From the NCBI GenBank assembly GCA_027309085.1, contig DAIDDL010000039.1, forward strand, positions 1-39,089: DNA of 39,089 bases, given 5' to 3'. How positions within the stretch are numbered: the stretch's first letter is position 1; each line of letters starts with the position of its first letter. Of this stretch, positions 6,377 through 38,771 are shown piece after piece. Source of the stretch: Sulfobacillus sp. GTDB lineage: Bacteria; Bacillota; Sulfobacillia; Sulfobacillales; Sulfobacillaceae. Both the position numbers and the translations under genes were made by a program. Below the pieces are notes generated by a model. The model was not told the DNA's origin, did not search any database, and saw only the letters and a program-made list of their open reading frames with translations.

Positions 6377-6493
6377 ATTCCTAGAAACCCCCCTCAATAT
6401 GACAACGCGCCTAGCAAAGAAAAGGTCACAACCTAGACACAAGAGGGCAGCGTGCTGGGAATGCGGCGGGGTGGACGGCCGCGGGCTCAGTTC

Positions 6494-6519
6494 ACCGGGC
6501 CCCTTACTGCGGGCCCGGT
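6494..6519. terminator. 9-bp hairpin, possible terminator
   Basis: ACCGGGCCC and GGGCCCGGT form a perfect 9-bp stem with an 8-base loop. The plus-strand side is followed by GCGTTTATTC, a weak T-rich tail. It sits just past the 3' end of the broken aminotransferase on the minus strand, where the tail is not T-rich, so the direction of action is unclear. Confidence 0.4.
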
Positions 6520-6563
6520 GCGTTTATTCTAGAACGATGCAGCGCAGACCTCCTGGTGTTTGG

Positions 6564-7050: not shown

Positions 7051-7055
7051 CAAAG

Positions 7056-9359: not shown

Positions 9360-12283
9360 TCAACAGCGCACCGTCCCAAGCCAGAATGATTGTGGAAATC
9401 TCGTGGATTTCCGACCGCGGAATTTTTCTTGAGCCGACAACCCCTCAAGGCTATTCCATCGAGCTGCGCAGAGCGGCCCGCGACCTTCTGACATGGGACT
9501 CATCCAGCTTTTACGGTACGGTGTACCAGACGGCTACGGCGGATGGCCGCCAGGGTATCATATTGCGGGCGATTGACGCTGTGGAATATTTTTCGGAAAA
9601 TCGGGCTAACAGCCTCATCGCTATCGAGTGGTCCCCGGAAGTTGATGCGGTCCGTCAGGCTGCTGCTCAGATCCGTGAAGTCTTGCACACGGCGCGCTTT
9701 ATCCCCGACTTTATCGCATGGCAGGAAGGTCGGCCCGGGTGGCGGCTAGCACAGGCGCCAGAAGCCACTGAGAAACTTTTACCTGTGCCGTACTTTGATG
9801 AATGGGCGAGTTTGGCCGTCCGCCAGCGCATTGGGGATGTGCCGGAGCTGGCCGAGGCATGGGAAGATCTTGTGCGCGCCTATCCTCTGCTGGGGTCAAA
9901 TGCCTCAGTTCCCGACCGTCTTGTGGACGAGACCGAATGGCGTGTGGCCATTGGGTTTCAGGAGGATCCCTTGCCGCTTCGCACATGTCTGCAGTTGGAA
10001 GAACCTCAAAACTCTTCGGAGTTTAGCGTCGGCATTGTGTTGCAGGACAGACATAACCCCAGCATTTTGATGCCTTTTTCTCCAGAAGACGGGGGGGAGT
10101 GCGCGCCGTATGCTGACCGGGTGGCCCGGGAAATTGCGCATTGGGTTCAGCTCGCGCCGTGGATGGCAGAGAAGTCGGAGAAAGGAGGGGAGGCGGGTAT
10201 CCGCCAAACACTCTCCCCCCGTGACGCCTGGCGGTTTCTGACAGACGCGGCCCCGGTGCTGGCCGCCGCAGGCTACACTCTGCTGCTCCCGGGTTGGTGG
10301 GAGCGTGCTCGCAGAGCCCGGGCGCGGCTGCGCGCCAAAGTCAAGTCCTCTGCCAATTCGAGGCGGGGATCCTTGTTCGGGTTGGACCAAACAGCTGCCT
10401 TTGACTGGCGCATTGCAGTAGGAGAGACGGAAATCACCCCCGAAGAATTTGCCCAAATGGCCGCGGAAAAGAGCCGCCTGGTGCGGTTTCGCGACCAGTG
10501 GCTGTGCATCGACCCGGAATTTCTCAAGCAGATCCGCAAGACCATGAAGACGGTGGATGAGAGCGGACTGACTCTGCGCGAAGTGCTGGAACGCTATCTG
10601 CGGGATGCAGCGGACCCGGCAGAGTCCCCCCAGAGAGGCGGCGAAGCCGGAGAAGACCCTACAGGCACCGTGGATGATGATGTGGAAGTCATATTGGACG
10701 CTCACCTCACGGAACTGGCTGAGCAGCTGGGGACGGCGGGACGCTTCCCCGTGATGGACACGCCGCCTGGGTTTCACGGCACACTGCGGCCGTATCAGCA
10801 GCAAGGATTCTCGTGGCTGGCCTTCTTGCGGCGCTACGGTCTGGGCGCTCTTTTGGCCGATGACATGGGGCTGGGCAAAACCGTGCAGTACATTGCCTAT
10901 CTCCTGGCCGCCCGCATGGAACCAGCAGAAGAAAATGCCTCACGCATGGAGGAAACGGGTGCGCGTCAGGGCCACGCCCTTCTGATCTGTCCGACCTCAG
11001 TGCTGGGCAACTGGCAAAAAGAGCTAGACCGATTTGCGCCGGGACTGCAGGTGCATCTTCATTACGGGGCCACGCGCAAACATGGCGACGAGCTGTGGGA
11101 TGCGGTGCGCGATGCTGACCTGGTTGTGACGTCCTACGCCGTGGCATATCTGGACGGGGATGACCTGACCGGGATCCATTGGGACTCCTTATGCCTCGAC
11201 GAGGCGCAGAACATCAAAAATGCGCACACCAAACAGGCATCGCTGGTGCGCCGCATTTCTGCCGGACACCGGATTGCCATGACCGGCACGCCTGTAGAAA
11301 ACCGGCTCACCGAACTCTGGTCCCTGATGGATTTTGCCAACCCGGGCTACCTAGGTGGACTCGCAGGGTTTTCCCACAGGTTTGTGCAGCCTATTGAAAA
11401 AGACAGAAATTCTGTGCGCGCCCAGCAACTGCAGAGAATGGTCAGGCCGTTTCTCCTGCGCCGTATCAAGGAAGACCCCGCGGTAGAGCTGGATCTGCCA
11501 GAGAAGTCGGAGATGAAGGAATTTGTCTCCCTGAGTGCCGAACAGGCGGCGCTGTACGAAGGGATTGTGAACCGGATGCTGGAGCGCATCGATCAGGAAC
11601 CTCCCATGGCCCGGCGGGGAGTGATCCTGGCCACTCTTACCCGGCTCAAGCAAGCTTGCAACCACCCTGCCCTGGCGGTTCAGGACCTGCCTGATGACGC
11701 ACTCCGGTCCGAGATGGATGTTATTGAGCAAATTTCGCGCTCGTCCAAATTGGAGCGTTTGGTGGAGATGGTGCAAGAGGTACGGGAAGAGGAGGACCAG
11801 TGTCTGATTTTTACCCAGTTTGTGCAGACAGGGCTGTTATTGCAGTCTATCTTGCAGCAGACGCTGGGGGAACCCGTGCCCTTTCTGCATGGGGGCCTTA
11901 ACAAACAGGCCCGTGACCGGATGATTACGGACTTTCAGCAGGCTGGCGCCACCCAAGGAGCGTTGATTCTCTCGCTGAAGGCGGGCGGGGTGGGACTGAA
12001 TCTGACAGCAGCTACGCATGTGTTCCATTTTGACCGCTGGTGGAATCCGGCAGTCGAGAGCCAGGCTACTGACCGGGCCTACCGCATCGGACAGGACCGG
12101 CACGTGCAGGTGCACAAGTTTGTCACATTGGGTACCCTGGAAGAACGGATCGATGCCCTGCTTGATTCCAAAAAGTCACTGAGCGAGAATATTGTCGGAG
12201 GCGGGGAACGGTGGATTACGGAACTGGCCACGGACGAACTCCGTGAGCTGCTGATGCTGCGGCGCGAGTGGGTCCGGGAGTAG
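9356..12283 (+). CDS. SNF2/RapA family helicase (YwqA-like)
   Basis: This 975-residue protein has an N-terminal bacterial SNF2-associated region (roughly 1-460) and a C-terminal SNF2 ATPase core. Walker A is 'DDMGLGKT' at 502-509, motif II is DEAQ at 615-618, motif III is 'MTGTPVENRLTELW', and helicase C ends with 'QATDRAYRIGQ' at 903-913, the motif VI arginine region. It should translocate on double-stranded DNA using ATP and remodel bound proteins. The TTG at 9356 is preferred because GAGGGGG lies 9 bases upstream and the gene overlaps its SWIM partner by four bases. The ATG at 9386 has no ribosome site. All catalytic motifs are intact. Confidence 0.93.
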   Translation: MINSAPSQARMIVEISWISDRGIFLEPTTPQGYSIELRRAARDLLTWDSSSFYGTVYQTATADGRQGIILRAIDAVEYFSENRANSLIAIEWSPEVDAVRQAAAQIREVLHTARFIPDFIAWQEGRPGWRLAQAPEATEKLLPVPYFDEWASLAVRQRIGDVPELAEAWEDLVRAYPLLGSNASVPDRLVDETEWRVAIGFQEDPLPLRTCLQLEEPQNSSEFSVGIVLQDRHNPSILMPFSPEDGGECAPYADRVAREIAHWVQLAPWMAEKSEKGGEAGIRQTLSPRDAWRFLTDAAPVLAAAGYTLLLPGWWERARRARARLRAKVKSSANSRRGSLFGLDQTAAFDWRIAVGETEITPEEFAQMAAEKSRLVRFRDQWLCIDPEFLKQIRKTMKTVDESGLTLREVLERYLRDAADPAESPQRGGEAGEDPTGTVDDDVEVILDAHLTELAEQLGTAGRFPVMDTPPGFHGTLRPYQQQGFSWLAFLRRYGLGALLADDMGLGKTVQYIAYLLAARMEPAEENASRMEETGARQGHALLICPTSVLGNWQKELDRFAPGLQVHLHYGATRKHGDELWDAVRDADLVVTSYAVAYLDGDDLTGIHWDSLCLDEAQNIKNAHTKQASLVRRISAGHRIAMTGTPVENRLTELWSLMDFANPGYLGGLAGFSHRFVQPIEKDRNSVRAQQLQRMVRPFLLRRIKEDPAVELDLPEKSEMKEFVSLSAEQAALYEGIVNRMLERIDQEPPMARRGVILATLTRLKQACNHPALAVQDLPDDALRSEMDVIEQISRSSKLERLVEMVQEVREEEDQCLIFTQFVQTGLLLQSILQQTLGEPVPFLHGGLNKQARDRMITDFQQAGATQGALILSLKAGGVGLNLTAATHVFHFDRWWNPAVESQATDRAYRIGQDRHVQVHKFVTLGTLEERIDALLDSKKSLSENIVGGGERWITELATDELRELLMLRREWVRE

Positions 12284-16360: not shown

Positions 16361-18016
16361 TCAGCCCTGGTTCCGGGTCTGTTCCTCATCCACCAAGAAT
16401 CTGCGCATGATCTTTCCGGAACCGTTTTTCGGGAGTGATTCCCGAATTTCCACTTGCCGCGGCGCTTTGAAAGCCGCCATTTCCCCGCGCGCCCAGGTGG
16501 CAATTTGCTCGGGAGTGACATGGCTGTCAGGCTTCAAGACGACGAAAGCCTTCACGGTTTCCCCCCGGTATGCGTCGGGAACGCCGATGACCACAGCCTC
16601 AGCAATGGCAGGATGCTTATACAAGAGACTTTCCACTTCGGCCGGAAATACGGAGAAACCAGAAGACTTGATCAGTTCCTTGCTGCGTCCTGAGATAAAA
16701 AGGTATCCGTCTGGGTCGACGTAGCCGATGTCCCCCGTATCAAACCACCCATCAGGCCGGAGCACTTCCTCTGTCGCCTCGGGGCGCTGCCAGTAACCTG
16801 CCATAACTTGGGGGCCCTTGACCCAGATCTCTCCGGTTTCCCCCAAGTCCAGTTCCCGGTCAAAATGACCGATTTCAGTAATGCGGAGATCGACGTCAAA
16901 CACCGGGATTCCCGCCGAGCCCATTTTTGGGTGGTCGGAGGGGTTGACGGTGACCTGGGATATGGTTTCGCTGAGGCCGTATCCCTCAATCAGGGTAGAT
17001 CCGGTGAGCTCGCGGAATTTCTCCAAAATGGGCACGGGTATGGGAGCGCCTCCCGACATGCAGGCTTGGAGCGAGTCGAGGCGGTATTCCTGGATGGCGG
17101 GAAACTGGGTCACCGCGATATTCATGGTGGCGATGCCCACCCAGTGCGTGGGGCGGTAGTAGTCGATGGCTTGGATGAATGTCGGTGTCTCGAACCGGGT
17201 AATCAGGAGTACGGTGGCGCCGGCGTACAGGGGCGCGAGAAACGAGTGCACCATGCCTGTCACGTGAAACAGAGGCAATACGGCAATATGCATGGATTCT
17301 TGAGTAACGTGAGTCCATGAAACCGACCCGGCGACATTGGCCAGCACATTGCGGTGCAGGAGCATGGCGCCTTTGGGTTGGCCGGTCGTGCCTGAGGTAT
17401 ACTGCAGCAAAGCCAGATCCTGATCCACATCCACATGCACGGGAAAAATAGGCTCCTGCGAGCGCACCCACTCGCTAAAGGAGATCCGGTCTGGATTCAC
17501 GGGAGAAACTTCGCGGCGCATGTCGGGATGAACTGCCGGCACAGGGATCTCGGGCAAGAACTCATCAAAGGCGGCATACACGACAGGAAGGCCTGGTTGG
17601 GAGGCAACTGCCTTTTCTACCACCGGCGCCAGCTCACGTCCCGCGATGACGAGGCGCGCCTGGCTGTCTTCGAGCTCATAGCGGAGCTCGTCGGCCATAA
17701 ACATGGGATTGGCCGCGACCACAACGCCCCCTACGGCATGAATCGCCAAATAGCTAAAAATAAACTGGGGAATATTTTGCATAAAGAGGAGGACTCGGTG
17801 CCCTGGGCCAATGCCGGCCGCCTGCAGGGCATGAGCCGTGCGCCCTATCCAGCCAGCCAGTTCCTGGTATGTAAAACGTGTACCGTAATAAATGAGGGCC
17901 GTGTGCTGGGGTGTTTCGCGAGCCCAGTCAAATACCCGTTCCGTGACGCTTTGCGACGGCTTGCTCCACGTTGTGGGCACACCTTCGGGCCACTCTTTGA
18001 GCCAAATCGGCTGCAT
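16361..18016 (-). CDS. Acyl-CoA ligase (AMP-forming), block A
   Basis: This 551-residue member of the ANL superfamily activates a carboxylic acid through an acyl-adenylate and transfers it to CoA. The P-loop signature 'YTSGTTGQPKG' is at residues 206-216. Other family blocks are 'LIEGYGLSETI', 'GWFDTGDIGYVDPDGYLFISG', the hinge 'GRSKELIKSSGFSVFPAEVE' and the C-terminal 'PKNGSGKIMRR', whose Lys is the catalytic residue of the adenylation step. The length and 'SGGAPIPVPILEKF' block fit medium- or long-chain fatty-acid ligases. The ATG at 18016 follows AAAGGAGGAACGGCAA. It lies 36 bases downstream of the lactonase gene, so both share one transcript, which suggests it activates the acid released by the lactonase (inference). 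Confidence 0.9.
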   Translation of the reverse strand: MQPIWLKEWPEGVPTTWSKPSQSVTERVFDWARETPQHTALIYYGTRFTYQELAGWIGRTAHALQAAGIGPGHRVLLFMQNIPQFIFSYLAIHAVGGVVVAANPMFMADELRYELEDSQARLVIAGRELAPVVEKAVASQPGLPVVYAAFDEFLPEIPVPAVHPDMRREVSPVNPDRISFSEWVRSQEPIFPVHVDVDQDLALLQYTSGTTGQPKGAMLLHRNVLANVAGSVSWTHVTQESMHIAVLPLFHVTGMVHSFLAPLYAGATVLLITRFETPTFIQAIDYYRPTHWVGIATMNIAVTQFPAIQEYRLDSLQACMSGGAPIPVPILEKFRELTGSTLIEGYGLSETISQVTVNPSDHPKMGSAGIPVFDVDLRITEIGHFDRELDLGETGEIWVKGPQVMAGYWQRPEATEEVLRPDGWFDTGDIGYVDPDGYLFISGRSKELIKSSGFSVFPAEVESLLYKHPAIAEAVVIGVPDAYRGETVKAFVVLKPDSHVTPEQIATWARGEMAAFKAPRQVEIRESLPKNGSGKIMRRFLVDEEQTRNQG

Positions 18017-18052
18017 TTGCCGTTCCTCCTTTTTGGGTGGTGCTGGTGCGGC

Positions 18053-18997
18053 TCAACGCTCAAACAAACGGCGCGGATTGCCGACGGTCATTGTGCGGAT
18101 CTCTTCATCAGATACGCCCAACTGTTTGAGGGCGGGGAGAACAGTCGTGGGAATGAAGGACATGCTCCAGTCGGGAACCATTTCCTTAATCTGTTCGGGC
18201 TCAAACCAGTCAATGGTGGCGCAGGCATCTTGGGACAGCAGCAGCTGGCCAGCGTAGCCCTTCTCAATGAGCGTGGCAACGGCTTGGTTGCGCCGACCTG
18301 TGGGCAGGTAGATATCCAGACCATAGCGGTCCAAACCGATAAAGACGCCGCGCTCGAGCACTCGGGTCAAGTAGGGAATGTCGTCCGTATCCCCGACGTG
18401 TCCGATGACCACCCGGGACAGGTCGACCCCTTCTTCTTCCAACAGGGCAATTTGCTCCAGCCCTGAGCCATTTTGCGCGTGGGAATGGGTGACGATGGGA
18501 CACTCGGTCCGGAGGTGGGCCCGCGCGGCCGCCCGGATCACTTTTTCCACTCCCGGAGTAATGCCGGGTTCGTCGGTGGCGAATTTAATAAAGCCCGCCT
18601 TAGTGGCAGTGCCCTGGATGCCCACAGTGATGTCGTGCACAAACAAGTCCGCCATAAAGTCAATGGACCGGTTGTCAAAGAAATGCGGCAGGTCACGGTA
18701 GGTGTAAATTCCCGTAGCCGCTACAATTTGTGCGCCGGTCGCCTCGGCGACGCGCTCCATGAAGTGCGCGTCGCGTCCCAAACCCAAGACGGTGGGGTCG
18801 CATATCGTCTGCACCCCGGAGCTTAGGGCCCGGCTGACCTCATCCACGGCACGCTCAAACTGGCGGGTGTCATCATACAGGAAGGGCCACTGAAAGCGCA
18901 CTCCGTCCGATTCTGTCCGCAGGTGCTCGTGAATGAGGGTGAACCCCATCTGTTCCGCGCTGATGGTGTTGCCTCCTACTAAAGGAATTGCCGCCAT
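18053..18997 (-). CDS. Phosphotriesterase-like lactonase (PLL, SsoPox-like)
   Basis: The 314-residue protein aligns end to end, from memory, with the archaeal lactonase SsoPox, with a constant offset of one residue. The binuclear metal ligands are all present: His23 and His25 in 'LIHEH', the carboxylated Lys138 in 'KAGFIKFATDE', His171, His200 in 'IGHVGD' and Asp257 in 'LSQDAC'. The lactone-pocket 'GIYTYRDLP' tyrosine and Arg224 in 'GLDRYGLDIYLP' are also kept. SsoPox-type enzymes hydrolyse gamma-lactones, delta-lactones and N-acyl-homoserine lactones, with weak phosphotriesterase side activity. No signal peptide is seen, so it is cytoplasmic. The neighbours are fatty-acid genes, not signalling genes, which favours lactone catabolism over quorum quenching. 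An 18-bp palindrome lies between its -10 box and its start codon. Confidence 0.9.
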   Translation of the reverse strand: MAAIPLVGGNTISAEQMGFTLIHEHLRTESDGVRFQWPFLYDDTRQFERAVDEVSRALSSGVQTICDPTVLGLGRDAHFMERVAEATGAQIVAATGIYTYRDLPHFFDNRSIDFMADLFVHDITVGIQGTATKAGFIKFATDEPGITPGVEKVIRAAARAHLRTECPIVTHSHAQNGSGLEQIALLEEEGVDLSRVVIGHVGDTDDIPYLTRVLERGVFIGLDRYGLDIYLPTGRRNQAVATLIEKGYAGQLLLSQDACATIDWFEPEQIKEMVPDWSMSFIPTTVLPALKQLGVSDEEIRTMTVGNPRRLFER

Positions 18998-19030
18998 AAC
19001 TCGTCACCATCCTTATCACAGTCTATTAAG

Positions 19031-19048
19031 ATACCTTCCGGTGGGTAT
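19031..19048. promoter_or_regulatory. Operator O1, 18-bp palindrome
   Basis: ATACCTTCCGGTGGGTAT is an imperfect palindrome about 10-27 bases after the predicted lactonase transcription start. It matches the pattern ATRCYNNCYRGNNRGYAT shared with the copies at 19150 and 32391. Size and symmetry fit a TetR-family repressor; the likely binder is encoded at 27317-27901 (inference). Confidence 0.65.
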
Positions 19049-19149
19049 TTACCGTTATTTTCGGATTATACCGCTTTTTTGGGCAGCAATGTACCCATTA
19101 AATTATTTTAACTATTGGGTTCCGATCCAAATTGCAGTATGCTATCACC

Positions 19150-19167
19150 ATACCTGCCAGTTAGTAT
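19150..19167. promoter_or_regulatory. Operator O2, 18-bp palindrome
   Basis: ATACCTGCCAGTTAGTAT lies at the predicted transcription start of block B, between the -10 box and the ribosome site of the first acyl-CoA dehydrogenase. On the other strand it reads ATACTAACTGGCAGGTAT, close to the 32391 copy. Confidence 0.65.
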
Positions 19168-19185
19168 GTGCAAAGGGGGATCGCT

Positions 19186-20394
19186 ATGACGCCTTTTGGG
19201 ATGTCTGAACGGGCTGAACTGTTGCAAACACAGCTGCTGCGGTTCATGGACGACTATATTTATCCGAATGAACAGGTCTTCGAACAACAGGTTCGCACAG
19301 GGGGGTTTCAAATCCCACCTATCATCGAAGAGCTGAAAGAAAAAGCCCGAAGCCAGGGCTTGTGGAATTTGTTTTTGCCTGAATCGGAATACGGCGCGGG
19401 ACTCACCAACCGGGAATATGCGCCGCTGGCGGAAATCATGGGCCGCTCGTATTTTGCCTCAGAGGTCTTCAACTGTGACGCACCCGACACGGGCAATATG
19501 GAGGTGCTGGTGCGGTATGGATCTCCGCAGCAAAAAGAGCAGTGGCTCCAGCCGCTTTTAAACGGCACCATCCGGTCGTGTTTTTCCATGACCGAGCCTG
19601 AGGTGGCCTCTTCCGATGCCATGAACATCCGCACGCAAATCGTGAGGGAGGGGAACGACTATGTGATTACAGGCCGGAAGTGGTGGTCGTCAGGGGCAGG
19701 CCATCCCCTGTGCCGCATTTCCATTGTGATGGGGCTGACCAATCCGGAGGGCCCGAAGTATGAGCGCCAGTCCATGATTCTGGTCCCGCTCGACACGCCG
19801 GGAGTGAACGTCAGGAGGATGCTCCCGGTCTTCGGCTATGACGATGCGCCGCACGGACACGGGGAGATTGACTTTGACCATGTGAGGGTGCCCGCCGACA
19901 ACATCATTTGGGGCGAAGGCAAAGGATTTGCGATTGCCCAAGGCCGGCTGGGCCCGGGCCGCATTCACCATTCCATGCGCATGATCGGTTCCGCCGAGCG
20001 GGCTTTGGAATTCATGGCCCGGAGGTCCCTGGAACGGGAAACCTTTGGGAAACTTCTGGCAGACCAGGGAGTAATCCGGCAGTGGATCGCCCAGTCGCGC
20101 ATTGCCATTGACCAAGCCCGGCTGCTGACCCTGTGGGCCGCTTACAAAATGGATACGGAAGGCAACAAGGCGGCAAGGCGGGAGATTGCGATGATCAAGG
20201 TCGTGGCGCCCTCCGTGGCCCTGGCCGTTTTGGACCGCGCTATCCAGACGTTTGGCGGGGCGGGCGTCAGTGACGACTTTCCGTTGGCCCGCATGTGGGC
20301 CAACGCACGCACGCTGCGGATCGCTGACGGTCCCGATGAAGTGCACCTGGACCAGCTGGCCCGGGACGAGTTGCGCCAATACCGTCCGCACTGA
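19186..20394 (+). CDS. ACAD10/ACAD11-type acyl-CoA dehydrogenase (LvaC-like)
   Basis: This 402-residue flavoprotein follows the dehydrogenase domain of mammalian ACAD11 closely: '[13 protein letters not shown]' at 96-108, '[14 protein letters not shown]' at 131-144, 'RKWWSSGAG' at 164-172, '[10 protein letters not shown]' at 253-262 and 'ADGPDEVH' at 380-387. In ordinary acyl-CoA dehydrogenases the last motif is YEGT-type with the catalytic Glu; here it is ADGP, as in ACAD10/11. That subgroup, with Pseudomonas LvaC, processes 4-phospho-acyl-CoA made by an APH-type kinase. In ACAD11 the kinase is fused at the N-terminus; here it is a separate gene, 21273-22325. The ATG at 19186 follows AAAGGGGGATCGCT. 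First gene of the block B operon. Confidence 0.9.
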
Positions 20395-20446
20395 GGCAGG
20401 CGATATTATTGTGGCAAGACAGGAAGGGAAAGGGAGGGCATTAGCT

Positions 20447-21217
20447 GTGAAGGTGCAGGAATTGTTCGACTGCCACGGCAAGACGGCAATTGTCACCGGA
20501 GGCGGCAGGGGACTCGGCAGGGTGATGGCGGAAGCTCTGGCTGAGGCCGGGGCCAACATTGTGGTGTGCTCCAGGAAACTTGAGGCCTGTGAGGAAACCG
20601 CCCACGGACTGTCTGCCCTGGGCGCCAAAGCTGTAGCGATGTCCTGCGATGTGACTTCGGCCGAGCAGATTGACCGTGTGGTAGATGCTGCGGTGCGGGA
20701 GTTTCACTCGGTGGACATTGTCATCAACAACAGCGGAGCCAGCTGGGGAGCCCCGGCTCTCGACATGCCGGTTGAGGCTTGGCACAAGGTGATGGAGGTC
20801 AATGTCACCGGCACCTTCTTAATGAGCCAGCGCGCTGGACGGGTGATGATAGCCCAGAAGTCCGGCAAGATGATCAATATGGCGTCGGTGGCGGGGCTTC
20901 ACGGTTCGGACCCCCGCTTTTTGGATGCTGTTGGCTATAGCGCCAGCAAGGGCGCCATTGTGGCGCTGACCAGAGATTTGGCTGTCAAGTGGGGGCCTTT
21001 CAACATTCAGGTCAATGCCATTGCCCCCGGATTCTTTCCCACCAAGATGTCGGAGGCTATTATTCAACGCCATGGCGACTTTCTGTTGGAGCATACGCCG
21101 CTCAGGCGGTTCGGAACCCCGGATGACATTAAAGGCATCGCGCTGCTGCTGGCGTCGCGAGCTTCAGATTACATGACGGGCGCCGTCATTGTGGTAGACG
21201 GCGGCGAATCGGCCTGA
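20447..21217 (+). CDS. Short-chain dehydrogenase/reductase, block B
   Basis: This 256-residue classical SDR has the cofactor loop 'VTGGGRGLGRV', 'NNSGASW' in place of the usual NNAG, Ser in 'MASVAG', and the catalytic 'YSASK' Tyr/Lys pair. It ends with 'ASDYMTGAVIVVDGGES', the normal SDR C-terminus. It would oxidise or reduce a hydroxyl/keto group with NAD(P). In the LVA pathway an SDR reduces a 4-keto-acyl-CoA to the 4-hydroxy form, and a 3-hydroxyacyl-CoA dehydrogenase role is equally possible here. The open frame runs back to 20252, but the GTG at 20447 has AAGGGAGGG 8 bases upstream and starts the protein just before the Rossmann fold. It lies 52 bases after the dehydrogenase gene. Confidence 0.87.
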   Translation: MKVQELFDCHGKTAIVTGGGRGLGRVMAEALAEAGANIVVCSRKLEACEETAHGLSALGAKAVAMSCDVTSAEQIDRVVDAAVREFHSVDIVINNSGASWGAPALDMPVEAWHKVMEVNVTGTFLMSQRAGRVMIAQKSGKMINMASVAGLHGSDPRFLDAVGYSASKGAIVALTRDLAVKWGPFNIQVNAIAPGFFPTKMSEAIIQRHGDFLLEHTPLRRFGTPDDIKGIALLLASRASDYMTGAVIVVDGGESA

Positions 21218-21272
21218 CCCTGCACGAAGGGAAGGCGGATGCGGCCTGTGGCAGCATCAGGAGGTGAGAGTC

Positions 21273-22325
21273 GTGTCCCAGTTGACCCCGATAAGACCGG
21301 GAGAAGAATTGGATGTGGCCCGTCTTGAGCCGTATTTGCGGACCGCTATTCCGGATTTGCCGCAGGGTCCCCTGCAGGTTCAGCAGTTTGCGGCGGGGCG
21401 GTCCAACCTGACCTATCTCATTTCCGTGGGAAGCCAGGACTATGTGCTGCGGCGCCCGCCCTTGGGCCCCGTAGCACCCAGAGCTCATGACATGGTGCGT
21501 GAGTACAGGTGGCTCCAAGAAATTTCCCCGCGGTTTTTGTGGGCGCCGCGGCCACTGGCCTTGTGCAAGGATCCTGCGGTGCTGGGCTTCATCTTCTTTG
21601 TCATGGAGCACCGCCCGGGTGTGCTGCTCGAAGATGCTCTCGCAGAACCGGGCCGCTATGCCCCGGCTGTGGGTGCTAAGATTTCTCAGATTCTCGTGTC
21701 ACGCTTGGCGGACCTGCATGCAGTGAACTGGCGATCCACCAACATGGCCTCCTGGGTCAAGCCTGAGGGGTTTTTAGCACGCCAAGTTGAAGGCTGGACC
21801 AGCCGTTACCAGAGGGCTAGGATTGCCGAAGTTCCCGGTGACCAGGAATTGACTCAATGGCTTCTCAACCATGTTCCGAATTCCTCTGAACCGGCCGTGA
21901 TCCACTACGACTACAAGCTGAATAATATGGTGTTCCGTCCCGACCTCAGTGACGTGGCGGGGATTTTCGATTGGGAAATGACCACCGTGGGCGACCCCAT
22001 AGCAGACGTGGCTGTGGCCATGAGCTACTGGATTCAGCCGGATGACCGCGGGCCGCTCCGGCAAGCCCTCCAAGAACATACGACCACACTTCCAGGATTT
22101 TGGACCCGGGATGAGTGGATTCAGCGTTATGCCCAGATGACAGGACGGGACATGGGAGATTTCCCCTACTACCTGACCTTTGCCTACTTTAAGCTGGCTG
22201 TGATTGTGGCGCAAATCTACTACCGTTATTACCAAGGCCAAACCCACGATCCGCGGTTCGCCGACATGAACCAGATGGTGGAACTGCTTGTGGAGTATGC
22301 TCTGGCGACGCGGCCTGACCATTAG
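21273..22325 (+). CDS. APH-family kinase for hydroxyacyl-CoA (ACAD11 N-domain / LvaA-like)
   Basis: The 350-residue protein has the aminoglycoside phosphotransferase fold. A glycine loop is seen in 'FAAGRSNLTYLI', then 'YVLRRPPLGPVAPRAHDMVR', the family's substrate-side signature. The catalytic loop is 'HYDYKLNN' (His211, Asp213, Asn218) and the metal-binding segment is 'IFDWEMTTVGDP' (Asp233). This subgroup is found fused to, or next to, ACAD10/11-type dehydrogenases. Known members phosphorylate the 4-hydroxyl of 4-hydroxyacyl-CoA rather than an antibiotic. Its place two genes after the ACAD11-like gene supports that role. AGGAGG at 21259-21264 selects the GTG at 21273; the upstream GTG at 21264 overlaps the ribosome site. 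LvaB, the small partner of LvaA in Pseudomonas, is not seen. Confidence 0.88.
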   Translation: MSQLTPIRPGEELDVARLEPYLRTAIPDLPQGPLQVQQFAAGRSNLTYLISVGSQDYVLRRPPLGPVAPRAHDMVREYRWLQEISPRFLWAPRPLALCKDPAVLGFIFFVMEHRPGVLLEDALAEPGRYAPAVGAKISQILVSRLADLHAVNWRSTNMASWVKPEGFLARQVEGWTSRYQRARIAEVPGDQELTQWLLNHVPNSSEPAVIHYDYKLNNMVFRPDLSDVAGIFDWEMTTVGDPIADVAVAMSYWIQPDDRGPLRQALQEHTTTLPGFWTRDEWIQRYAQMTGRDMGDFPYYLTFAYFKLAVIVAQIYYRYYQGQTHDPRFADMNQMVELLVEYALATRPDH

Positions 22326-25529: not shown

Positions 25530-27136
25530 ATGGACCGTCTCGGGTCTAAACCTCTGCATGAATATTTACGGGATCATGCTCAAAAGCATCCGGACCGCGC
25601 CGCTATTATTTGGTATGGCCGCACGATCACATACGCCGAATTGGACGAGTGGTCTGGACGTGTGGCCGCCGTGCTCCAGGACTGGGGAGTGCATTCCGGT
25701 GACCGTGTGGCGTTGTACATGGGCAATTGCCCTCAGTACCTCATGGCTTTTTTGGGTACGCAAAAGTTGGGGGCGGTTGTGAGTCCCGTCAGTCCTTCAT
25801 TTAAGTCGTGGGAACTGGAATACCAGTTGCAAGACAGCGGGGCCAAGGTTCTGGTTGCGGACAGACGGCTCATCGCCCAGTGGCTTCCAGTCCGGCGGGC
25901 ATTTCTGGACATGCGCGTGCTGGTCTCGGATTACCGGGACTTTTTGCCGGAGCACACACCGCTTACAGCATTTGGTGAAACACCAGACCTGCCACCTCTT
26001 TGTGAGGCCGGGGAGTGGAGCCGGGTGGTGCCTTCAGCAGTGCCAGCGCCCACTCTTTTCCACGTTCCGGTGGATCACGTGTCGCTGATGATGTATACAT
26101 CCGGATCAACAGGGATGCCCAAAGGGGCGATGCTCACGTATGAAAACGCGTGGTTCAAGGCGGCGGCCGACAGCGAGGCCAATGGCATCGGTCCACAGGA
26201 CATCTTGCTGACGGTGATGCCCCTGTCGCACATTGCCGGTCTGCTGATGGGCCTGGGCGTGCCGATTTATTTGGGAGCAAGCCAGGTGTTGCTCCACCAG
26301 TTCAATCCGGAGATGGTCATCCAAGCTGTCGAGACATACCAGTGCAGTTTCTGGTACAGCGTGGCCCCCATGAACCGCGCTGTGCTCGACTGTCTGGATT
26401 CTGGCGATGTCCGGATGCGGTCGCTCCGCCACAATCTGTGCACCAGCTTTGGGATTCCCCTGACGGAGACACTGGCCCGGGAGTGGACCCCCAGAAAACC
26501 GGTTGCGTCATTCACGAAGCGGCCTATGGTCTGACTGAAACCCACACAGCGGATACGTATATGCCTGCCGGCGACGTGCGGTGGGGGACGGTCGGGAAGC
26601 CGGTGGGGGACACGGTGCTCCGCATTGTGGATCCAGACACCGGGCATGACGCCAGGCCAGGAGAAGCCGGAGAAATTTGGGTGAAAAACCGGGGGGCATT
26701 CAAAGGGTACTGGAATCAGCCGGAGGCGAGCCAGAGAGCTCTTCGCGAGGGGTATGTGCTAACAGGGGACATAGGACATCTCGATCCGGACGGATATTTG
26801 TATTTTCACGGGCGGCTGAAGGAAATGATCAAAGTCTCAGGATACAGCGTGTTTCCCGAAGAGGTCGAGGCGCTGCTGATCCGGCATCCCGGTATCCAGC
26901 AGGTGGCTGTGGTCGGGCAAATCCACCCCTACCGGGGAGAGGTGGTCAAAGCCTTCGTGGTGTTAAGGCCGGGAGCCGTGTTAACATCTGAGGACTTAAT
27001 AGAATGGGCTCAAGATCACATGGCCTATTACAAAGTGCCCCGGGAGGTCGTGCTGGTGCCGTCCTTGCCGGTGTCAAGCACCGGCAAGGTGATGAGGAGA
27101 TTGCTGGTGGACGATTCTCAGCCTGGTAAAGACTGA
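25530..27136 (+). pseudogene. Acyl-CoA ligase (AMP-forming) with a frameshift, block B
   Basis: Two overlapping frames encode one ANL-family ligase. The first (from ATG 25530) has the P-loop 'YTSGSTGMPKGAML' and runs to a false end at 26534. The second resumes near 26490 with 'HEAAYGLTETHTADTYMPAG', then 'GYVLTGDIGHLDPDGYLYFH', the hinge 'KEMIKVSGYSVFPEEVEALL' and the catalytic-lysine block 'SSTGKVMRR', ending at 27136. Six C instead of five at 26488-26492 would join them into one protein of about 535 residues with no other defect. So it is either a very young mutation, a phase-variable tract or a sequence error. Repaired, it would be the acid-activating step of block B. Confidence 0.85.
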
Positions 27137-32482: not shown

Positions 32483-32600
32483 TCAGAAGAAATAGGCGGG
32501 GGAGAATGCAGGGACGGGAGGATTCGGCTGGGCGCGCACACGGCCGCTTCACGTGCGGACCGCCACCGTTGGAGCAGCGGGAGTGGAAGGGGGATGTGCA

Positions 32601-34130
32601 ATGCAAGTGCTTACCCGGGTTTTGGCGGAGAATGTGCAGCAGTACGGCGAGTATCCGTTTCTCTATGATCAGGAAAGGGTGATCAGCAACCGCCAGGCTT
32701 TCCACGAAGCCGAGAGAATTCGCGATTTGCTGGTGGACTCCGGCGTGCATGGTGGTGACCGGGTCATGGTGACCATGCCCAACCGAGCTGAGGTGTTGTC
32801 CGCCTATCAGGGGGCGCTCATGGCCGGCGCCATTGTGGTGCCTGTAATGCACCTCCTGGAAGAGCCGGAAATCCGTCACATTCTGGCAGACTCGCAGCCA
32901 CGCGCGGTATTTTTGGACCGCCACACCGCGGAAAAGGTGGAAACAGCCGCCCGCCATGTGCCGGATGCGCCGGAGCTGTTCTGCGTTGACACAGGTGTCC
33001 GGGGCCTCCCCTCTTTGGCCCAAGCGCTTCAGGGCACCGCTTCTGGGCATCGCACCGCCCGGGTGGCAGAAAATGATGTCGCTGTCATCTTGTATACATC
33101 CGGGACGACTGGCAAACCCAAAGGGGTGATGCTGACGCATAAAAACCTTTACAGCAATGCGCGCCAAGTGGCTCAGGACAATCCTTCCGACCGGTCGGTG
33201 ACGCTGGGGGTCTTGCCTCTGGCGCACGTGTACGGATTTACCGTTACGACCATCAACGCCATGCTGGGCGGGTCCATTGTGCTGTTTCCCCGATTTGAGG
33301 CCGAAAAAGTGTTCCAGGCGATAGAGCGTTACCGGGTGAAAATGTTTTCGGCCGTACCGGCAATGATTTATGCGATGGTCTACAGTCCGGCCCGCTCCCA
33401 GTATGATCTCTCAAGCCTGGAATATGTCTCGTCCGGGTCCGCTCCCTGTCCTGTCGCACTGATTGAAGCATTTCAATCCGCCTTTCACGCCGATGTGCTG
33501 GAAGGATATGGCCTGTCCGAGGCGGCACCCGTGGTCAGCGGCCACCGCCGCGGAATGCCCGTGAAGCCTGGTACTGTCGGGGTGCCCGTTTCGGGAGTGG
33601 ATGTGCGCATTGTCGGCGGAGACGGGCAGGACCTCCCGTCCGGGGACATTGGGGAATTGTGGATACGGGGAGACAATGTGACCCCGGGGTATTACCGAAA
33701 TCCGAACGCCACCCGTGAAGTACTGCACGGCGGAGGGTGGCTGGCGACGGGCGATATGGCCAGCATAGACCCCGACGGCTATTTGAGCATCGTGGAGAGG
33801 AAGAAGGATATCATCATTCGGGGGGGATTCAACATTTATCCCCGAGATGTGGAAGACATCTTGTTGCGCCATCCTGATGTGGCAGAGGCGGCGGTTGTGG
33901 GAATGGCTTCGGACCGCATGGGAGAGGAAGCCGTTGCCTACGTGGTCGCGAAACCCGGCACCCGGGCGCGTCCAGAAGAGATTTTGGAGCATGCTGCGCG
34001 TTTTTTGGCACGTTACAAGCTTCCCCGGCACATCGTCGTTGTGGACACTCTGCCCAAAAACGGTGTGGGCAAGATCATGAAAAAAACCCTGCGGGAATGG
34101 GCAGGACAATTGGCTCAGGATGAGGATTAA
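32601..34130 (+). CDS. Acyl-CoA ligase (AMP-forming), block D
   Basis: The 509-residue ANL enzyme has the P-loop 'YTSGTTGKPKGVML', 'LEGYGLSEAAPVVSGHRRG', 'GGWLATGDMASIDPDGYLSI', the hinge 'ERKKDIIIRGGFNIYPRDVE' and the catalytic Lys in 'PKNGVGKIMKKTLREW'. It activates a carboxylic acid as the CoA thioester; 'VVPVMHLLEEPEIRHIL' and the overall length fit fatty- or aryl-acid ligases. The open frame extends upstream to 32553, but the ATG at 32601 has GGAAGGGGGA 6 bases upstream. First gene of block D, 12 bases from the frame of the MaoC N-type subunit. It is the only one of the three ligases that is both intact and in an operon controlled by the O3 site. Confidence 0.9.
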   Translation: MQVLTRVLAENVQQYGEYPFLYDQERVISNRQAFHEAERIRDLLVDSGVHGGDRVMVTMPNRAEVLSAYQGALMAGAIVVPVMHLLEEPEIRHILADSQPRAVFLDRHTAEKVETAARHVPDAPELFCVDTGVRGLPSLAQALQGTASGHRTARVAENDVAVILYTSGTTGKPKGVMLTHKNLYSNARQVAQDNPSDRSVTLGVLPLAHVYGFTVTTINAMLGGSIVLFPRFEAEKVFQAIERYRVKMFSAVPAMIYAMVYSPARSQYDLSSLEYVSSGSAPCPVALIEAFQSAFHADVLEGYGLSEAAPVVSGHRRGMPVKPGTVGVPVSGVDVRIVGGDGQDLPSGDIGELWIRGDNVTPGYYRNPNATREVLHGGGWLATGDMASIDPDGYLSIVERKKDIIIRGGFNIYPRDVEDILLRHPDVAEAAVVGMASDRMGEEAVAYVVAKPGTRARPEEILEHAARFLARYKLPRHIVVVDTLPKNGVGKIMKKTLREWAGQLAQDED

Positions 34131-34199
34131 AGGGTTCCAAAAATGGCGGCCGCCGGGTGCGCACGGTGCATTCCAGCGGTGGAAAGGCGGGGACAATGG

Positions 34200-34643
34200 A
34201 TGCTGCAGGTGGATGCAGAATGGATAGGGGAGAGAGCAGCTCCTCGGGCCACAGAAATTGAGAAGGGGGCGATCAGACAATTTGCGCTGGCTCTGGGGGA
34301 AAGTGATCCAGTGTACTTTGATGAGGAAATTGCGCGGCGGGCGGGATACCGGAGTCTTCCCGCCCCGCCGACTTTCCCCGCCACCCTGCCGAGCAATCCC
34401 GTGCCGGGCCTGAAATTGCCCCGGGCGGGCCTTATTCATGGCGAGCAGCAGTTTGTCTACGGCGCGCCGATCTGTGCGGGAGACGTCATCCGGGTGAGCG
34501 CGTGGCTTGAGAATGTCAAGGTCCGCCGCGGCAGCCGGGGCATCATGAGCATCGTGACTATCGCCCGCGAAGGGGTCAACCAGGAGGATGTGATGGTGTT
34601 TCAGGCCCGGTCGGTCCTCATTGCGAATGAGGGGGAAATTTGA
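34200..34643 (+). CDS. MaoC-type dehydratase subunit, N-terminal (non-catalytic) type
   Basis: The 147-residue hot-dog protein belongs to the MaoC_dehydrat_N / FAS1-like dehydratase group: 'ATEIEKGAIRQFALALGESD', 'RSLPAPPTFPATLPSN', 'LIHGEQQFVYGAPICAGDVI' and the C-terminal 'TIAREGVNQEDVMVFQARSV' strand. The position of the catalytic Asp-x4-His is 'DPVYFDEE', without the His, as expected for the substrate-binding partner of a two-subunit hydratase (HadA-like). The frame extends upstream to 34143, but the ATG at 34200 gives the family N-terminus and has GGGGACA nearby. Its TGA directly abuts the ATG of the catalytic subunit, so the two are coupled and probably form a heterodimer. Confidence 0.85.
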   Translation: MLQVDAEWIGERAAPRATEIEKGAIRQFALALGESDPVYFDEEIARRAGYRSLPAPPTFPATLPSNPVPGLKLPRAGLIHGEQQFVYGAPICAGDVIRVSAWLENVKVRRGSRGIMSIVTIAREGVNQEDVMVFQARSVLIANEGEI

Positions 34644-35069
34644 ATGTGGCAAGTTGGCGATAAGGTGGGGCCATGGGCTCACACCATTACCCGTGAACAG
34701 CTCGTGCGTTATGCGGGGGCATCGGGCGATTTCAATCCTATCCACTACGATGACGAGCGGGCCCGTGAATTTGGACTGCCCGGGGTAATCGCTCACGGGA
34801 TGTTGAATATGGGACTGGCGGCACGCTATTTGAAATCCGCGGCCCCGCCCGGGGCCCGCTTCGAACGTTACGCCGTGCGGTTTCGGTCTATGGTGCAGCC
34901 AGGACAGACCGTGACGATTTCCGGTGAGGTTAAGTCGGTGGACTATGGCTCGAGCGGTGCGCAGGCGCTGATTGACGTGACGGTGGGGGTTGCCGGGGCC
35001 GAGGCGGCCGTCACAGGGCAGGCTGTTCTCTCCTGGCCGGCCGGCGGGGAGGAGAGTCCGGGAACCTGA
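34644..35069 (+). CDS. MaoC-type hydratase subunit, catalytic (R-specific enoyl-CoA hydratase)
   Basis: The 141-residue hot-dog protein has the hydratase-2 motif 'GDFNPIHYDDERAREFGLPG' with Asp29 and His34 and the following 'VIAHGML' helix. It hydrates trans-2-enoyl-CoA to (R)-3-hydroxyacyl-CoA, unlike the crotonase in block B, which should give the (S)-isomer. It pairs with the preceding MaoC-N subunit, and the ATG at 34644 follows that gene's stop with no gap. Together with the block D ligase and dehydrogenase it supplies a separate beta-oxidation branch. Confidence 0.87.
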   Translation: MWQVGDKVGPWAHTITREQLVRYAGASGDFNPIHYDDERAREFGLPGVIAHGMLNMGLAARYLKSAAPPGARFERYAVRFRSMVQPGQTVTISGEVKSVDYGSSGAQALIDVTVGVAGAEAAVTGQAVLSWPAGGEESPGT

Positions 35070-35160: not shown

Positions 35161-36417
35161 ATGGAACAGCTGACCGGCCAAGTGTGGCTGGGAGATGTGC
35201 AAGAGGTACCGCAGATGCTGGCGGAGGGTGTGACTTGGTTCGCGGATCTTCGGACAGATGCCGGACCGCCCATTGATGCGGCAAACACCGAAAGATTCCC
35301 CTTGGAGCGGTCTGCTCCTGATGGGGACGGCACGCTGGCATGGGCGGCGCACTGCGTAAAGATGCGGGTGGACCAGGGGGAAGTTGTCGGCATCTGCGGA
35401 CACGGCCAGAAGGACGCGGCAGAGGCTTTGGGACTGGCCTACCTGATGGCCATGGGTTACAGTCTGTCCGGTGCCCAGCGATTCTGGCGGAAACGGTTCC
35501 CGGGCATGACGTTTCCTCTGCCCTTATGGTATGCAGAGGATGCCAGGCGCCGCCTGCAGGCAAGCAAGAGAGTGCACAGCCTCAGGACTGTTGCAGGCCT
35601 ATCTGTTCACACCGTGCACTGCCCGGGTCCGGGAGATCCTCTGGTGCTGTTGCATGGTGCTTACGGCAGCTGGACACATTGGGTGAACAACCTGGAAAGC
35701 CTGTCGCAGTTTGCCGATGTCTGGGCTATGGACTTGCCGGGATTCGGTGAATCAGATGACTGGCCCGGGGAGTTCGATTCCCCGAAGTATGTTCAGGTAG
35801 TGGCGTCTGCTATCCGTGACATGGTCGGCAAACCGGTCGTGTTGGCGGGGTATTCCTTCGGGGCTTTTATCGCGGCCGCGCTGGCTTTGGCTGCACCGGC
35901 TCAGGTGCAGTCGTTAATTCTGGTGTCCCTTGTGGGAGAGACTGGGGACCCGGCCGCGCACCGGCGCCTTGAAGAGCGCCATTTTTCCCACAATCCGTCC
36001 TGGCATTACCGGCTGGGCGTGGTGCGGGACAATTTGGCGGCGCTGCACCTTTACCGGCCCGAAGCCGCCGATGAGCGGGCGGTAAGACTGACTTACCTGA
36101 ATATCCTGCACGCGCGCTTAGGCCCGCGCGAGTTGCGACGCGGCAGCCCCCGAATGGCTATGGCAGATATGCTGCGCGGTCTGCGGGGCATTCCCGTTAT
36201 GATGTGCTGGGGACGTCACGACCCTATGCCGCAACCCAGTGTGCAGGCATGGGCACAGACTTGTGAGATGCTGCTTCCTGATGCGGAAATGAGAATAATT
36301 GATGAGGCTTCCCACTGGTGCCAGTATGAGCGGCCCCACGAAATTACCGCAGTGATTCGGGAATTCATGGGGTCCGGGCGCGGGGCGAACGCTGAGAGCG
36401 CCGCTCCTCACGAATAG
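35161..36417 (+). CDS. Pseudophosphatase-alpha/beta hydrolase fusion protein
   Basis: The 418-residue protein has two domains. Residues 1-125 resemble a dual-specificity phosphatase: 'VWLGDVQEVPQMLAEGVTWF', then 'VVGICGHGQKDAAEALGLAY' and 'MAMGYSLSGAQRFWRKRFPG'. The catalytic HCx5R loop reads Ile-Cys79-Gly-His-Gly-Gln-Lys-Asp85, so Cys is kept but the Arg is replaced by Asp and the His by Ile; it is probably inactive. Residues 145-410 are an intact alpha/beta hydrolase: oxyanion 'LHGAYGSW', nucleophile Ser232 in 'AGYSFG', Asp354 in 'WGRHDP', His385 in 'ASHWCQYE'. The hydrolase half may cleave an ester, lactone or acyl-CoA. The ATG at 35161 follows AAGGAGACAAG; the open frame reaching 34990 overlaps the MaoC gene and is ignored. 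Confidence 0.85.
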   Translation: MEQLTGQVWLGDVQEVPQMLAEGVTWFADLRTDAGPPIDAANTERFPLERSAPDGDGTLAWAAHCVKMRVDQGEVVGICGHGQKDAAEALGLAYLMAMGYSLSGAQRFWRKRFPGMTFPLPLWYAEDARRRLQASKRVHSLRTVAGLSVHTVHCPGPGDPLVLLHGAYGSWTHWVNNLESLSQFADVWAMDLPGFGESDDWPGEFDSPKYVQVVASAIRDMVGKPVVLAGYSFGAFIAAALALAAPAQVQSLILVSLVGETGDPAAHRRLEERHFSHNPSWHYRLGVVRDNLAALHLYRPEAADERAVRLTYLNILHARLGPRELRRGSPRMAMADMLRGLRGIPVMMCWGRHDPMPQPSVQAWAQTCEMLLPDAEMRIIDEASHWCQYERPHEITAVIREFMGSGRGANAESAAPHE

Positions 36418-36567
36418 ATTCGAAAGGGGTGCAGCGGGAGGCGGCAATGGTCAGCAATATTGAAGCATGCGGCCATGAGTTTGGAGCCAAGGCTGGTGAC
36501 GCGAGCAAAGGCGAACTATGTGGGCTGCCCCCGCATAGTCAACCTCCGAAACGTAGGGAGAAAAATA

Positions 36568-37470
36568 ATGGCGAGTCAGGAAAGTCAACACATCCGCGCA
36601 GTGCTGCGGAGCCAGAAGGAGGCGGCGAAAAACCACCCCCCGCTGTCCATAGCGCAGCAAAGGCAAGGCCTGGAATCTTTAAGCAGGGGGTTGCCGCCAG
36701 ATGCCGGGATAGCGGTGCGTTCCGCCACTGCGGGCACAGTTCCCGGGGAGTGGCTGATTCCTTCCGAAGGGACAGGCAGCCGGGTCATCTTGTACCTTCA
36801 TGGGGGAGCTTACTATATGGGAAGCTGCAGCACCCATAGAGATCTGGCGGGGCGGCTGGCCCTCGCTTCGGACAGCCGGGTTTTGGTGACAGGGTACCGG
36901 CTGGCTCCAGAGTGGCCGTTTCCCGCGGCGTTGGACGATGCCGTATTGGCTTACCAGTATCTCTTAGACTCAGGAGTGCCGCATGAGCGCATTGTGGTAG
37001 CGGGGGACTCGGCGGGCGGGGGATTGGCGGTTTCAGCGCTCGTGTCCTTGCGGGATCGGGGAACGGATTTGCCAAGAGCAGCGGTGCTGATGTCGCCGTG
37101 GACAGATTTGGCGGGGACTGGCGATTCTATGGAAACACGGTCAGAGGCGGATCCCTGGCTGGATCCGGAGGGTATTCGCGCCGGCGCCAGGATTTACTTG
37201 GGCAACGCTGACCCTAAAAACCCGCTGGCATCCCCGCTCTACGCCGACTTGCACGGGCTGCCCCCTATGCTGATACAGGTCGGCCGCGATGAGTGCCTGC
37301 TCGATGATTCGGCCCGGCTGGCGGAGCGCGCACGGGACCAGGGGACAGATGCCACGGTGACCGTGTGGGACGGAATGTGGCATGTTTTTCAGGCATTTGC
37401 CGCCCAAGTGCCCGAAGCGCAAAAAGCGGTCAACGAGATTGGTGAATGGGTTAGATTTCAGGTGCCGTGA
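36568..37470 (+). CDS. HSL-family esterase (alpha/beta hydrolase fold-3)
   Basis: The 300-residue carboxylesterase has the HSL-family oxyanion motif 'LHGGAYYMG' (His78-Gly-Gly), nucleophile Ser148 in 'VAGDSAGGG', acid residue in 'GRDECLLDD' (Asp241 or the following Glu) and His272 in 'MWHVFQAF'. 'GYRLAPEWPFPAALDDAV' is a family signature. It hydrolyses short- or medium-chain esters or lactones in the cytoplasm; no signal peptide is seen. The open frame extends to 36460, but the ATG at 36568 has GTAGGGAG 9 bases upstream and a normal N-terminus for the family. It would release acids for the block D ligase. Confidence 0.9.
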   Translation: MASQESQHIRAVLRSQKEAAKNHPPLSIAQQRQGLESLSRGLPPDAGIAVRSATAGTVPGEWLIPSEGTGSRVILYLHGGAYYMGSCSTHRDLAGRLALASDSRVLVTGYRLAPEWPFPAALDDAVLAYQYLLDSGVPHERIVVAGDSAGGGLAVSALVSLRDRGTDLPRAAVLMSPWTDLAGTGDSMETRSEADPWLDPEGIRAGARIYLGNADPKNPLASPLYADLHGLPPMLIQVGRDECLLDDSARLAERARDQGTDATVTVWDGMWHVFQAFAAQVPEAQKAVNEIGEWVRFQVP

Positions 37471-37607: not shown

Positions 37608-38771
37608 ATGGATTTCTCATTAAGCAGCGAAGAGCGCATGATTCGCGATACGGTACGGCAGTTCATTGCCAATGAAGTGATGCCCCTGGAACCCGAAGTG
37701 CTAAAAAATGAACGGAATGGCCGTCCGGCAATCTCCGACGACACGCTGAAGCGATTGCAGGAAAAGGCGAAGTCCTTGGGATTTTGGGGAATCAACACGC
37801 CCAAGCAATACGGGGGGGCGGAGTTGGGATGGCTGATGACCGCCTTGATTTACGTAGAATTGGGGAGGACCTATGTGCCCTTTATGTTTGGCGGCAGTGC
37901 GGACAACATTTTATATGAAGGCACCAAAGAACAGCAAGAGCGGTATTTGCTGCCGACAATCGCAGGCGACAGACGGTCGTGCTTTGCCCTGACAGAGCCC
38001 GGAGCGGGCTCGGACGCGGGCAACATCCGCACCTCTGCTGTCAAAGAGGGAAAGCACTGGGTTATCAATGGCGAGAAAATATTTATCACCAATGGCAACG
38101 AAGCCGATTTCTGCATGGTATTGGCGGTGACTGACCGCTCCAAGGGGCCTCACCAGGGTATCAGCTGTTTTTTGGTGGACCGCGATATGGGATGGCGGTC
38201 CACACCAATTCAAACGATGGGAGAGTGGTCCCCGGCGTCTCTGGTTTTTGACAACGTCCGCGTTCCGGAAGAGAATCTGCTGGGGGAAGAAGGGCGGGGG
38301 CTGGCTCTCGGCATGCGGTGGATCGGGAATGCCCGGTGGGCCATCGCGGCGCGTGCTGTCGGAGCTGCGGAGCGGCTTCTCGAGATGGCTATCCAGCAGG
38401 CCAACACGCGGGTCACATTCGGACAGCCGCTGGCTGACCGCCAAGCTATTCAGTGGATGATTGCCGATTCCGCAGTGGAAATTGAAGCGACCAAATGGAT
38501 GACGTACCGTGCGGCCTGGATGCTGGATCAAGGCATGGACAACAGGCATATGGCCTCGATGTCCAAGTTGTATGGGGCAGACATGGCCAACCGCGTGGTC
38601 GACCGTGTGCTGCAAATCCACGGCGGCATGGGATACACGAAAGACTTGCCGATCGAACGGTGGTACCGGGATATGCGGCTGTTTAGAATTTTTGACGGAA
38701 CAGATGAAATTCAGCGTTATATCATTGCCCGCAATTTACTGAAAGGCCATGTGAAAGTCGGGCAAGATTAA
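37608..38771 (+). CDS. Acyl-CoA dehydrogenase with Asp in the catalytic motif, block D
   Basis: The 387-residue FAD enzyme has 'CFALTEPGAGSDAGNIRTSA', 'INGEKIFITNGNEADFCMVL', 'ITFGQPL'-like 'VTFGQPLADRQAIQWMIADS' and 'QIHGGMGYTKDLPIERWYRD'. The C-terminal motif reads 'RIFDGTDEIQRYIIAR', with Asp where typical enzymes carry the catalytic Glu of YEGT. This is seen in some FadE-like branches, where another Glu may act as base. It probably begins beta-oxidation of the acid made in block D. The ATG at 37608 has only a weak ribosome site (GACGGTGATTTC). It is the last gene of block D, 137 bases after the esterase. Confidence 0.88.
   Translation: MDFSLSSEERMIRDTVRQFIANEVMPLEPEVLKNERNGRPAISDDTLKRLQEKAKSLGFWGINTPKQYGGAELGWLMTALIYVELGRTYVPFMFGGSADNILYEGTKEQQERYLLPTIAGDRRSCFALTEPGAGSDAGNIRTSAVKEGKHWVINGEKIFITNGNEADFCMVLAVTDRSKGPHQGISCFLVDRDMGWRSTPIQTMGEWSPASLVFDNVRVPEENLLGEEGRGLALGMRWIGNARWAIAARAVGAAERLLEMAIQQANTRVTFGQPLADRQAIQWMIADSAVEIEATKWMTYRAAWMLDQGMDNRHMASMSKLYGADMANRVVDRVLQIHGGMGYTKDLPIERWYRDMRLFRIFDGTDEIQRYIIARNLLKGHVKVGQD

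Follow-up and report, generated by a model that had tools for sequence, protein, structure and literature searches.

Operons of the MaoC/acyl-CoA dehydrogenase (ACAD) type are known from CoA-dependent degradation pathways such as those for sterol side-chains. Most pseudophosphatases known so far belong to eukaryotic signalling, the eukaryotic protein STYX among them. PTPRU is a further eukaryotic pseudophosphatase (PMC7320164). The atypical dual-specificity phosphatase (DSP) DUSP28 has a Tyr in place of the His before its catalytic Cys and shows atypically low activity (PMC5679558).

The gene described here lies in a stretch of Sulfobacillus sp. DNA of 39,089 nucleotides (the window) and encodes a DSP-derived domain joined to an alpha/beta hydrolase. 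Its product has an apparently inactivated PTP/DSP-type domain in common with STYX and PTPRU, but is bacterial, is fused to an enzyme and has lost several motif residues at once. DUSP28 (PF00782) is the nearest solved relative and shares the Tyr before the Cys with the canonical relatives of the window protein, whereas the window protein itself has neither the Cx5R motif nor the general acid and continues into a hydrolase. The back half has the fold, the GxSxG motif and the Ser-Asp-His triad of the C–C hydrolase/esterase group (CarC, BphD, HsaD), although identity is only approximately 20% and these enzymes lack the extra N-terminal DSP domain. The operon resembles the MaoC/ACAD type in its paired MaoC genes and acyl-CoA ligase, and relatives of the operon also have the ACAD pair; the window differs in carrying the DSP–hydrolase gene and in having no such pair. 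Features are listed in Table 1.

Table 1. Features of the fusion gene, its operon and a degenerate paralogue (window positions except in the last row).
Feature	Position	Strand	Details
AMP-forming acyl-CoA ligase, operon head	32553..34130	+	PF00501, E 1e-89
MaoC/FAS1-DH-type hotdog protein A (MaoC-A), partner of B	34143..34643	+	PF13452, E 3e-33
MaoC-like hydratase B (MaoC-B)	34644..35069	+	PF01575, E 4e-26
DSP–alpha/beta-hydrolase fusion gene	35161..36417	+	418 aa
Degenerate DSP domain, residues 1-133	35161..35559	+	Profile match; AF2 strand/helix order
Arg50, replacing the general-acid Asp of FPLxD	35308..35310	+	Alignments A3/A4
Degenerate P-loop ICGHGQKDAA, residues 78-87, replacing YCQAGxSRT	35392..35421	+	Alignments
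Alpha/beta hydrolase domain, residues 160-392	35638..36336	+	Pfam; VIA-align; triad invariant in 7 fusions
Hormone-sensitive-lipase-type (HSL-type) esterase, downstream	36460..37470	+	PF07859, E 3e-57
Acyl-CoA dehydrogenase, downstream	37608..38771	+	Only 24-31% identical to the relatives' post-fusion ACAD pair
Degenerate fusion paralogue, L046 (G037:C199)	3378-4712		Operon TetR-MaoC-MaoC-fusion-ACAD-ACAD

The fusion protein and its family

The fusion ORF is a genuine coding sequence, with a purine-rich AAGGAG-like site ahead of its ATG, and its full length is intact, with no stops or frameshifts and the same length as the canonical members. Pfam analysis of the protein returned the alpha/beta hydrolase only (PF00561, E 8.7e-22, about residues 160-392). 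The N-terminal domain alone gave no Pfam match and nothing credible among PDB sequences, and a Pfam scan of the host genome gave no DSPc match at all. By contrast with these single-sequence tools, a profile built from 12 canonical relatives, with the window left out, matched residues 1-122 in register with a score of 69 bits. The canonical relatives that were scanned match Pfam DSPc (PF00782) above the cut-off, and the DSP-domain profile A3, which takes in the window row, matches DUSP28 and other DSP structures (E 5e-14 to 1e-12). The initial annotation had described DSP landmarks in the N-terminal 125 residues and this was borne out by the profile match; at the level of sequence, the homology of residues 1-125 to DSPs, with the link made through the canonical relatives, is confirmed.

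An AF2 model of the full protein with a 14-row alignment reached pLDDT 84 and pTM 0.80, by comparison with pLDDT 35 when the same protein was modelled from its single sequence. The strand/helix order of the N-terminal part fits a DSP, with uneven pLDDT (block means 60-91); fold-search lists from the full-length model were filled by the hydrolase half, with no DSP structure among the matches listed. The full-protein model matched C–C hydrolases at Z 28-30 (VIA-align; CarC Z 30.2, BphD and HsaD about 28), with the best fold match of the hydrolase at Z up to 30.2 and an rmsd of 2.2 over 247 residues, and the modelled hydrolase fold of the back half can be taken as secure. Esterase structures match at Z about 27, within 1-3 Z units of the C–C hydrolases, and for this reason a substrate is not assignable to the hydrolase; nor do the scores single it out as a meta-cleavage C–C hydrolase acting on a dienoate. 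The triad Ser232 (GYSFG), Asp354 and His385, which the initial annotation had called intact, is present in all seven fusion proteins of the alignment. The hydrolase half probably retains its activity and would work within an acyl-CoA pathway.

A search of 42 genomes of the order found seven DSP–hydrolase fusion genes spread over six genomes, of which the host is one (G000, G011, G031, which is Sulfobacillus harzensis, G033, G036 and G037, the last with two genes), and a stand-alone DSP in G041. All seven, the window gene among them, have both domains in one ORF in the same order. No further fusion gene was found among 154 genomes of the class, and plain searches for relatives of the fusion protein in genome contigs and for the DSP half in viral contigs gave nothing. 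The architecture had been annotated as unusual, with the suggestion that the same two-domain order be sought in other genomes; it is not a one-off, and judged from these sequences the seven genes form a small conserved fusion family in the Sulfobacillus order, most members of which have canonical DSP motifs. Literature searches turned up no description of a fusion between a DSP and an alpha/beta hydrolase, which is weak evidence as coverage was partial.

The canonical motifs YCQAGxSRT and FPLxD, or close forms of them, occur in five of the six other fusions as well as in the stand-alone proteins examined. A YCQAG pattern played no part in finding the order's fusion members, whereas it helped to find the actinobacterial stand-alone DSPs (L028-L033), which are therefore canonical by selection. 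When the DSP family was sought more widely and without bias, 198 genomes from one actinobacterial order and 396 from Actinomycetota yielded only the seed genomes and no further degenerate member, and the family is thus rare. A tree of the DSP domain only has a single branch that separates the stand-alone from the fused forms, and its support is modest (82/86).

Loss of the active-site motifs in the window protein

In place of the canonical YCQAGxSRT and FPLxD, the window protein has ICGHGQKDA and FPLER. Thirty-nine near-invariant columns were taken from the canonical members, 11 of them in the P-loop and general-acid segments and 28 elsewhere. In an ungapped alignment, the window protein keeps 0/11 of the active-site columns by comparison with 20/28 of the others (p = 4.5e-5); with a gapped alignment instead, 2/11 active-site columns are kept (p 0.004). 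The ungapped MAFFT alignment sets Cys79 on the Tyr position and Gly80 on the nucleophile position, whereas the HMM alignment places a one-residue deletion before and a one-residue insertion after, and so sets Cys79 on Cys, Gly82 on Gly and Ala86 on Arg. The phosphate-binding Arg is absent from the loop in both alignments, and the domain shows neither the HCx5R signature, with its catalytic Cys and its Arg, nor the general-acid Asp.

These alignments revise the initial annotation, which had read the loop as Ile for His and Asp for Arg with the Cys retained. The absence of the Arg stands, while the roles of Cys79 as nucleophile and of Asp85 as occupant of the Arg position depend on the alignment; the His substitution does not hold as stated, as the family has Tyr before the Cys (YCQAGxSRT). 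The lost general acid (Arg50 for Asp) had been missed. The same annotation had reasoned that close homologues with the Arg present would make this a point mutation. Relatives at about 40% identity do have the Arg, but the aligned sequences indicate a wholesale loss of the motif and not a point mutation, because the whole motif and the general acid are gone and the DSP half has evolved several times faster than in the canonical members.

With the nucleophile loop, the phosphate-binding Arg and the general acid lost, it is very probable that the DSP half is devoid of phosphatase chemistry. The conserved residues outside the active site indicate that the DSP fold itself is probably kept.

Operon context

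The window operon reads acyl-CoA ligase, MaoC-A, MaoC-B, fusion gene, HSL-type esterase and ACAD. In the window and in the relatives, the MaoC pair lies directly or closely upstream of the fusion gene; the relatives keep MaoC-A, MaoC-B and fusion (with an SDR gene before the fusion in two of them), mostly followed by an ACAD pair. MaoC-B counterparts with 56-65% identity adjoin the fusion gene in relatives, the ligase heading the window operon has a 63% identical counterpart in L023 and in L026, the locus of the canonical Sulfobacillus harzensis homologue, and an ADP-forming acyl-CoA synthetase adjoins the fusion gene in some relatives. In the window, the fusion gene is followed not by an ACAD pair but by the HSL-type esterase and one distant ACAD, with the contig ending at 39089; as the pair is absent, the window pathway may differ from that of the relatives. 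Two genomes of the same genus, G005 and G007, retain the MaoC pair but have no fusion gene.

Each half also occurs in such surroundings alone. Stand-alone DSPs in Actinomycetota and in G041 adjoin MaoC/hydratase-2 or ACAD genes, and hydrolase homologues with no DSP domain, on proteobacterial plasmids, adjoin ACAD, acyl-CoA ligase or enoyl-CoA hydratase genes. Either half is thus linked to CoA pathways independently of the other, and their fusion unites components of a single type of pathway. The initial annotation of a pseudophosphatase fused to an esterase in a fatty-acid operon is supported once the esterase is read as an alpha/beta hydrolase, which is intact, and the operon as one of CoA catabolism. 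From operon and fold together, it is likely that the hydrolase half hydrolyses an ester, a thioester or an activated bond in a CoA pathway.

Several other features of the window and relatives were recorded. The ACAD downstream of the fusion gene shares 69% identity with an ACAD of Trebonia kvetii (Actinomycetota; L033 75-1232), about 7 kb away from which is a stand-alone DSP belonging to the same family as the DSP half of the fusion gene; transfer of this ACAD between phyla is possible. Further upstream in the window is a split ACAD11-like pair (19168-20394 and 21264-22325), together with a phosphotriesterase-like gene (18056-18997, a possible lactonase) and an acyl-CoA ligase (16364-18016). 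The acyl-CoA dehydrogenase of the pair matches ACAD11 at E 9e-139, and its APH-type kinase matches the kinase half of ACAD11 at E 2e-48; the genes from 16364 to 22325 look like a cluster for 4-hydroxy-acid or lactone degradation. An AMP-binding acyl-CoA ligase at 25530-27136 extends over two frames (profile positions 2-308, then 316-384 and the C-terminal domain) and is a frameshifted gene or a sequencing error. At 7800-12283, an ORF of 519 aa with no Pfam match is directly followed by a DUF3670/SNF2 helicase. In G041, away from its DSP, a MaoC pair, an acyl-CoA ligase and an ACAD11-like kinase are consecutive (L058, G041:C30:70000-82000, 3817-7482).

Rates of evolution and possible roles of the DSP half

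A second degenerate member was found in G037, which has a canonical fusion gene on C240 and a degenerate one (L014) on C199. The motif of L014 is FSETSGPSRG, with Ser for the catalytic Cys, and its general acid is kept; as in the window protein, the scaffold is kept and the motif lost. End branches of the DSP domain are 2.55 for the window protein and 2.71 for L014, by comparison with at most 0.48 for the rest, whereas those of the hydrolase domain are ordinary (0.68 and 0.60, versus up to 0.65); fast evolution is thus limited to the DSP half in both proteins. An AU test did not discriminate between one loss shared by the two and separate losses (p 0.145).

Our preferred explanation, which we hold to be somewhat the better bet when taken as a whole, is that a phosphatase-dead DSP half is kept as a module beside an active hydrolase in a CoA operon. 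The window protein would be a fusion-family member of a MaoC/acyl-CoA dehydrogenase operon in which the phosphatase chemistry of the DSP half has been lost and its original phosphatase role dispensed with. The hydrolase half would cleave an ester, thioester or activated C–C bond of a CoA-thioester degradation intermediate, and the dead DSP half would persist for the sake of the hydrolase, in folding, in oligomerization or in docking on the neighbouring MaoC/ACAD enzymes. A structural or interaction role for the dead half is on balance the likelier case.

Fast evolution of the DSP half is also how simple decay looks. A DSP half that is a decaying remnant under relaxed selection, of which only the fold is needed for solubility of the hydrolase, would account for a DSP branch about five times the longest canonical one next to an ordinary hydrolase branch and for there being no Pfam DSP match left. 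Against this, 20 of the 28 near-invariant columns outside the active site are kept, the full length is intact with no stops or frameshifts, and L014 shows the same pattern of kept scaffold and lost motif; we consider decay rather unlikely, if a serious alternative.

It is improbable that the DSP half serves as a sensor or regulatory lid for the hydrolase that binds a ligand or phospho-ligand such as a phosphorylated acyl-CoA, as the initial annotation had proposed. ACAD11-like enzymes make 4-phosphoacyl-CoA (PMC12440821), and the window does have, 13-16 kb upstream, a 4-hydroxyacyl-CoA-kinase-like gene as well as one for an ACAD11-like dehydrogenase; however, the DSP half has lost the phosphate-binding Arg together with most of the loop. 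Presence of the kinase does not track that of the DSP across the 42 genomes (3/7 versus 9/35, p 0.39), and a search of eight other genomes found no APH-family gene on the same contig as the DSP genes or less than 100 kb away from them. Coupling of kinase and phosphatase through the ACAD11-like kinase is not supported on the same counts.

A loop remodelled into a different but still catalytic site would have chemically able residues in Cys79, His81, Lys84 and Asp85, and the HMM alignment leaves Cys79 at the nucleophile position and Gly82 at that of the glycine; this is very doubtful, as the searches of 42 genomes of the order and 154 of the class brought up no second sequence in which the loop is remodelled in this way. 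That an assembly error or compensated double frameshift masks a normal motif is hardly credible and a frameshift origin of the loop was rejected, since the off-frame reading ...GHGARRTA, seen at a very low frameshift penalty, gains no more than random in-frame segments do (fraction as high, 0.38-0.50), the loss extends to the general acid in another part of the domain, and the length equals that of the canonical members.

Returning to the DSP half as a retained module, we tentatively suggest that a lineage of metabolic phosphatases tied to MaoC/ACAD pathways, stand-alone in Actinomycetota and fused in the Sulfobacillus order, may have given rise, perhaps twice, to pseudophosphatases that regulate or scaffold a hydrolase, with motif-intact and inactivated forms that can be compared even within G037. 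The window protein is, from its motifs, a bacterial pseudophosphatase domain in a small fusion family that appears to have gone unremarked in the part of the literature covered. It would place an enzyme-fused bacterial pseudophosphatase in a metabolic operon, with motif-intact homologues in the same order. With such homologues, and with a motif-intact paralogue that coexists with a Cys-to-Ser copy in G037, the remaining role of the dead phosphatase domain is testable, and the family raises the question of which target the motif-intact versions dephosphorylate in CoA-degradation clusters.
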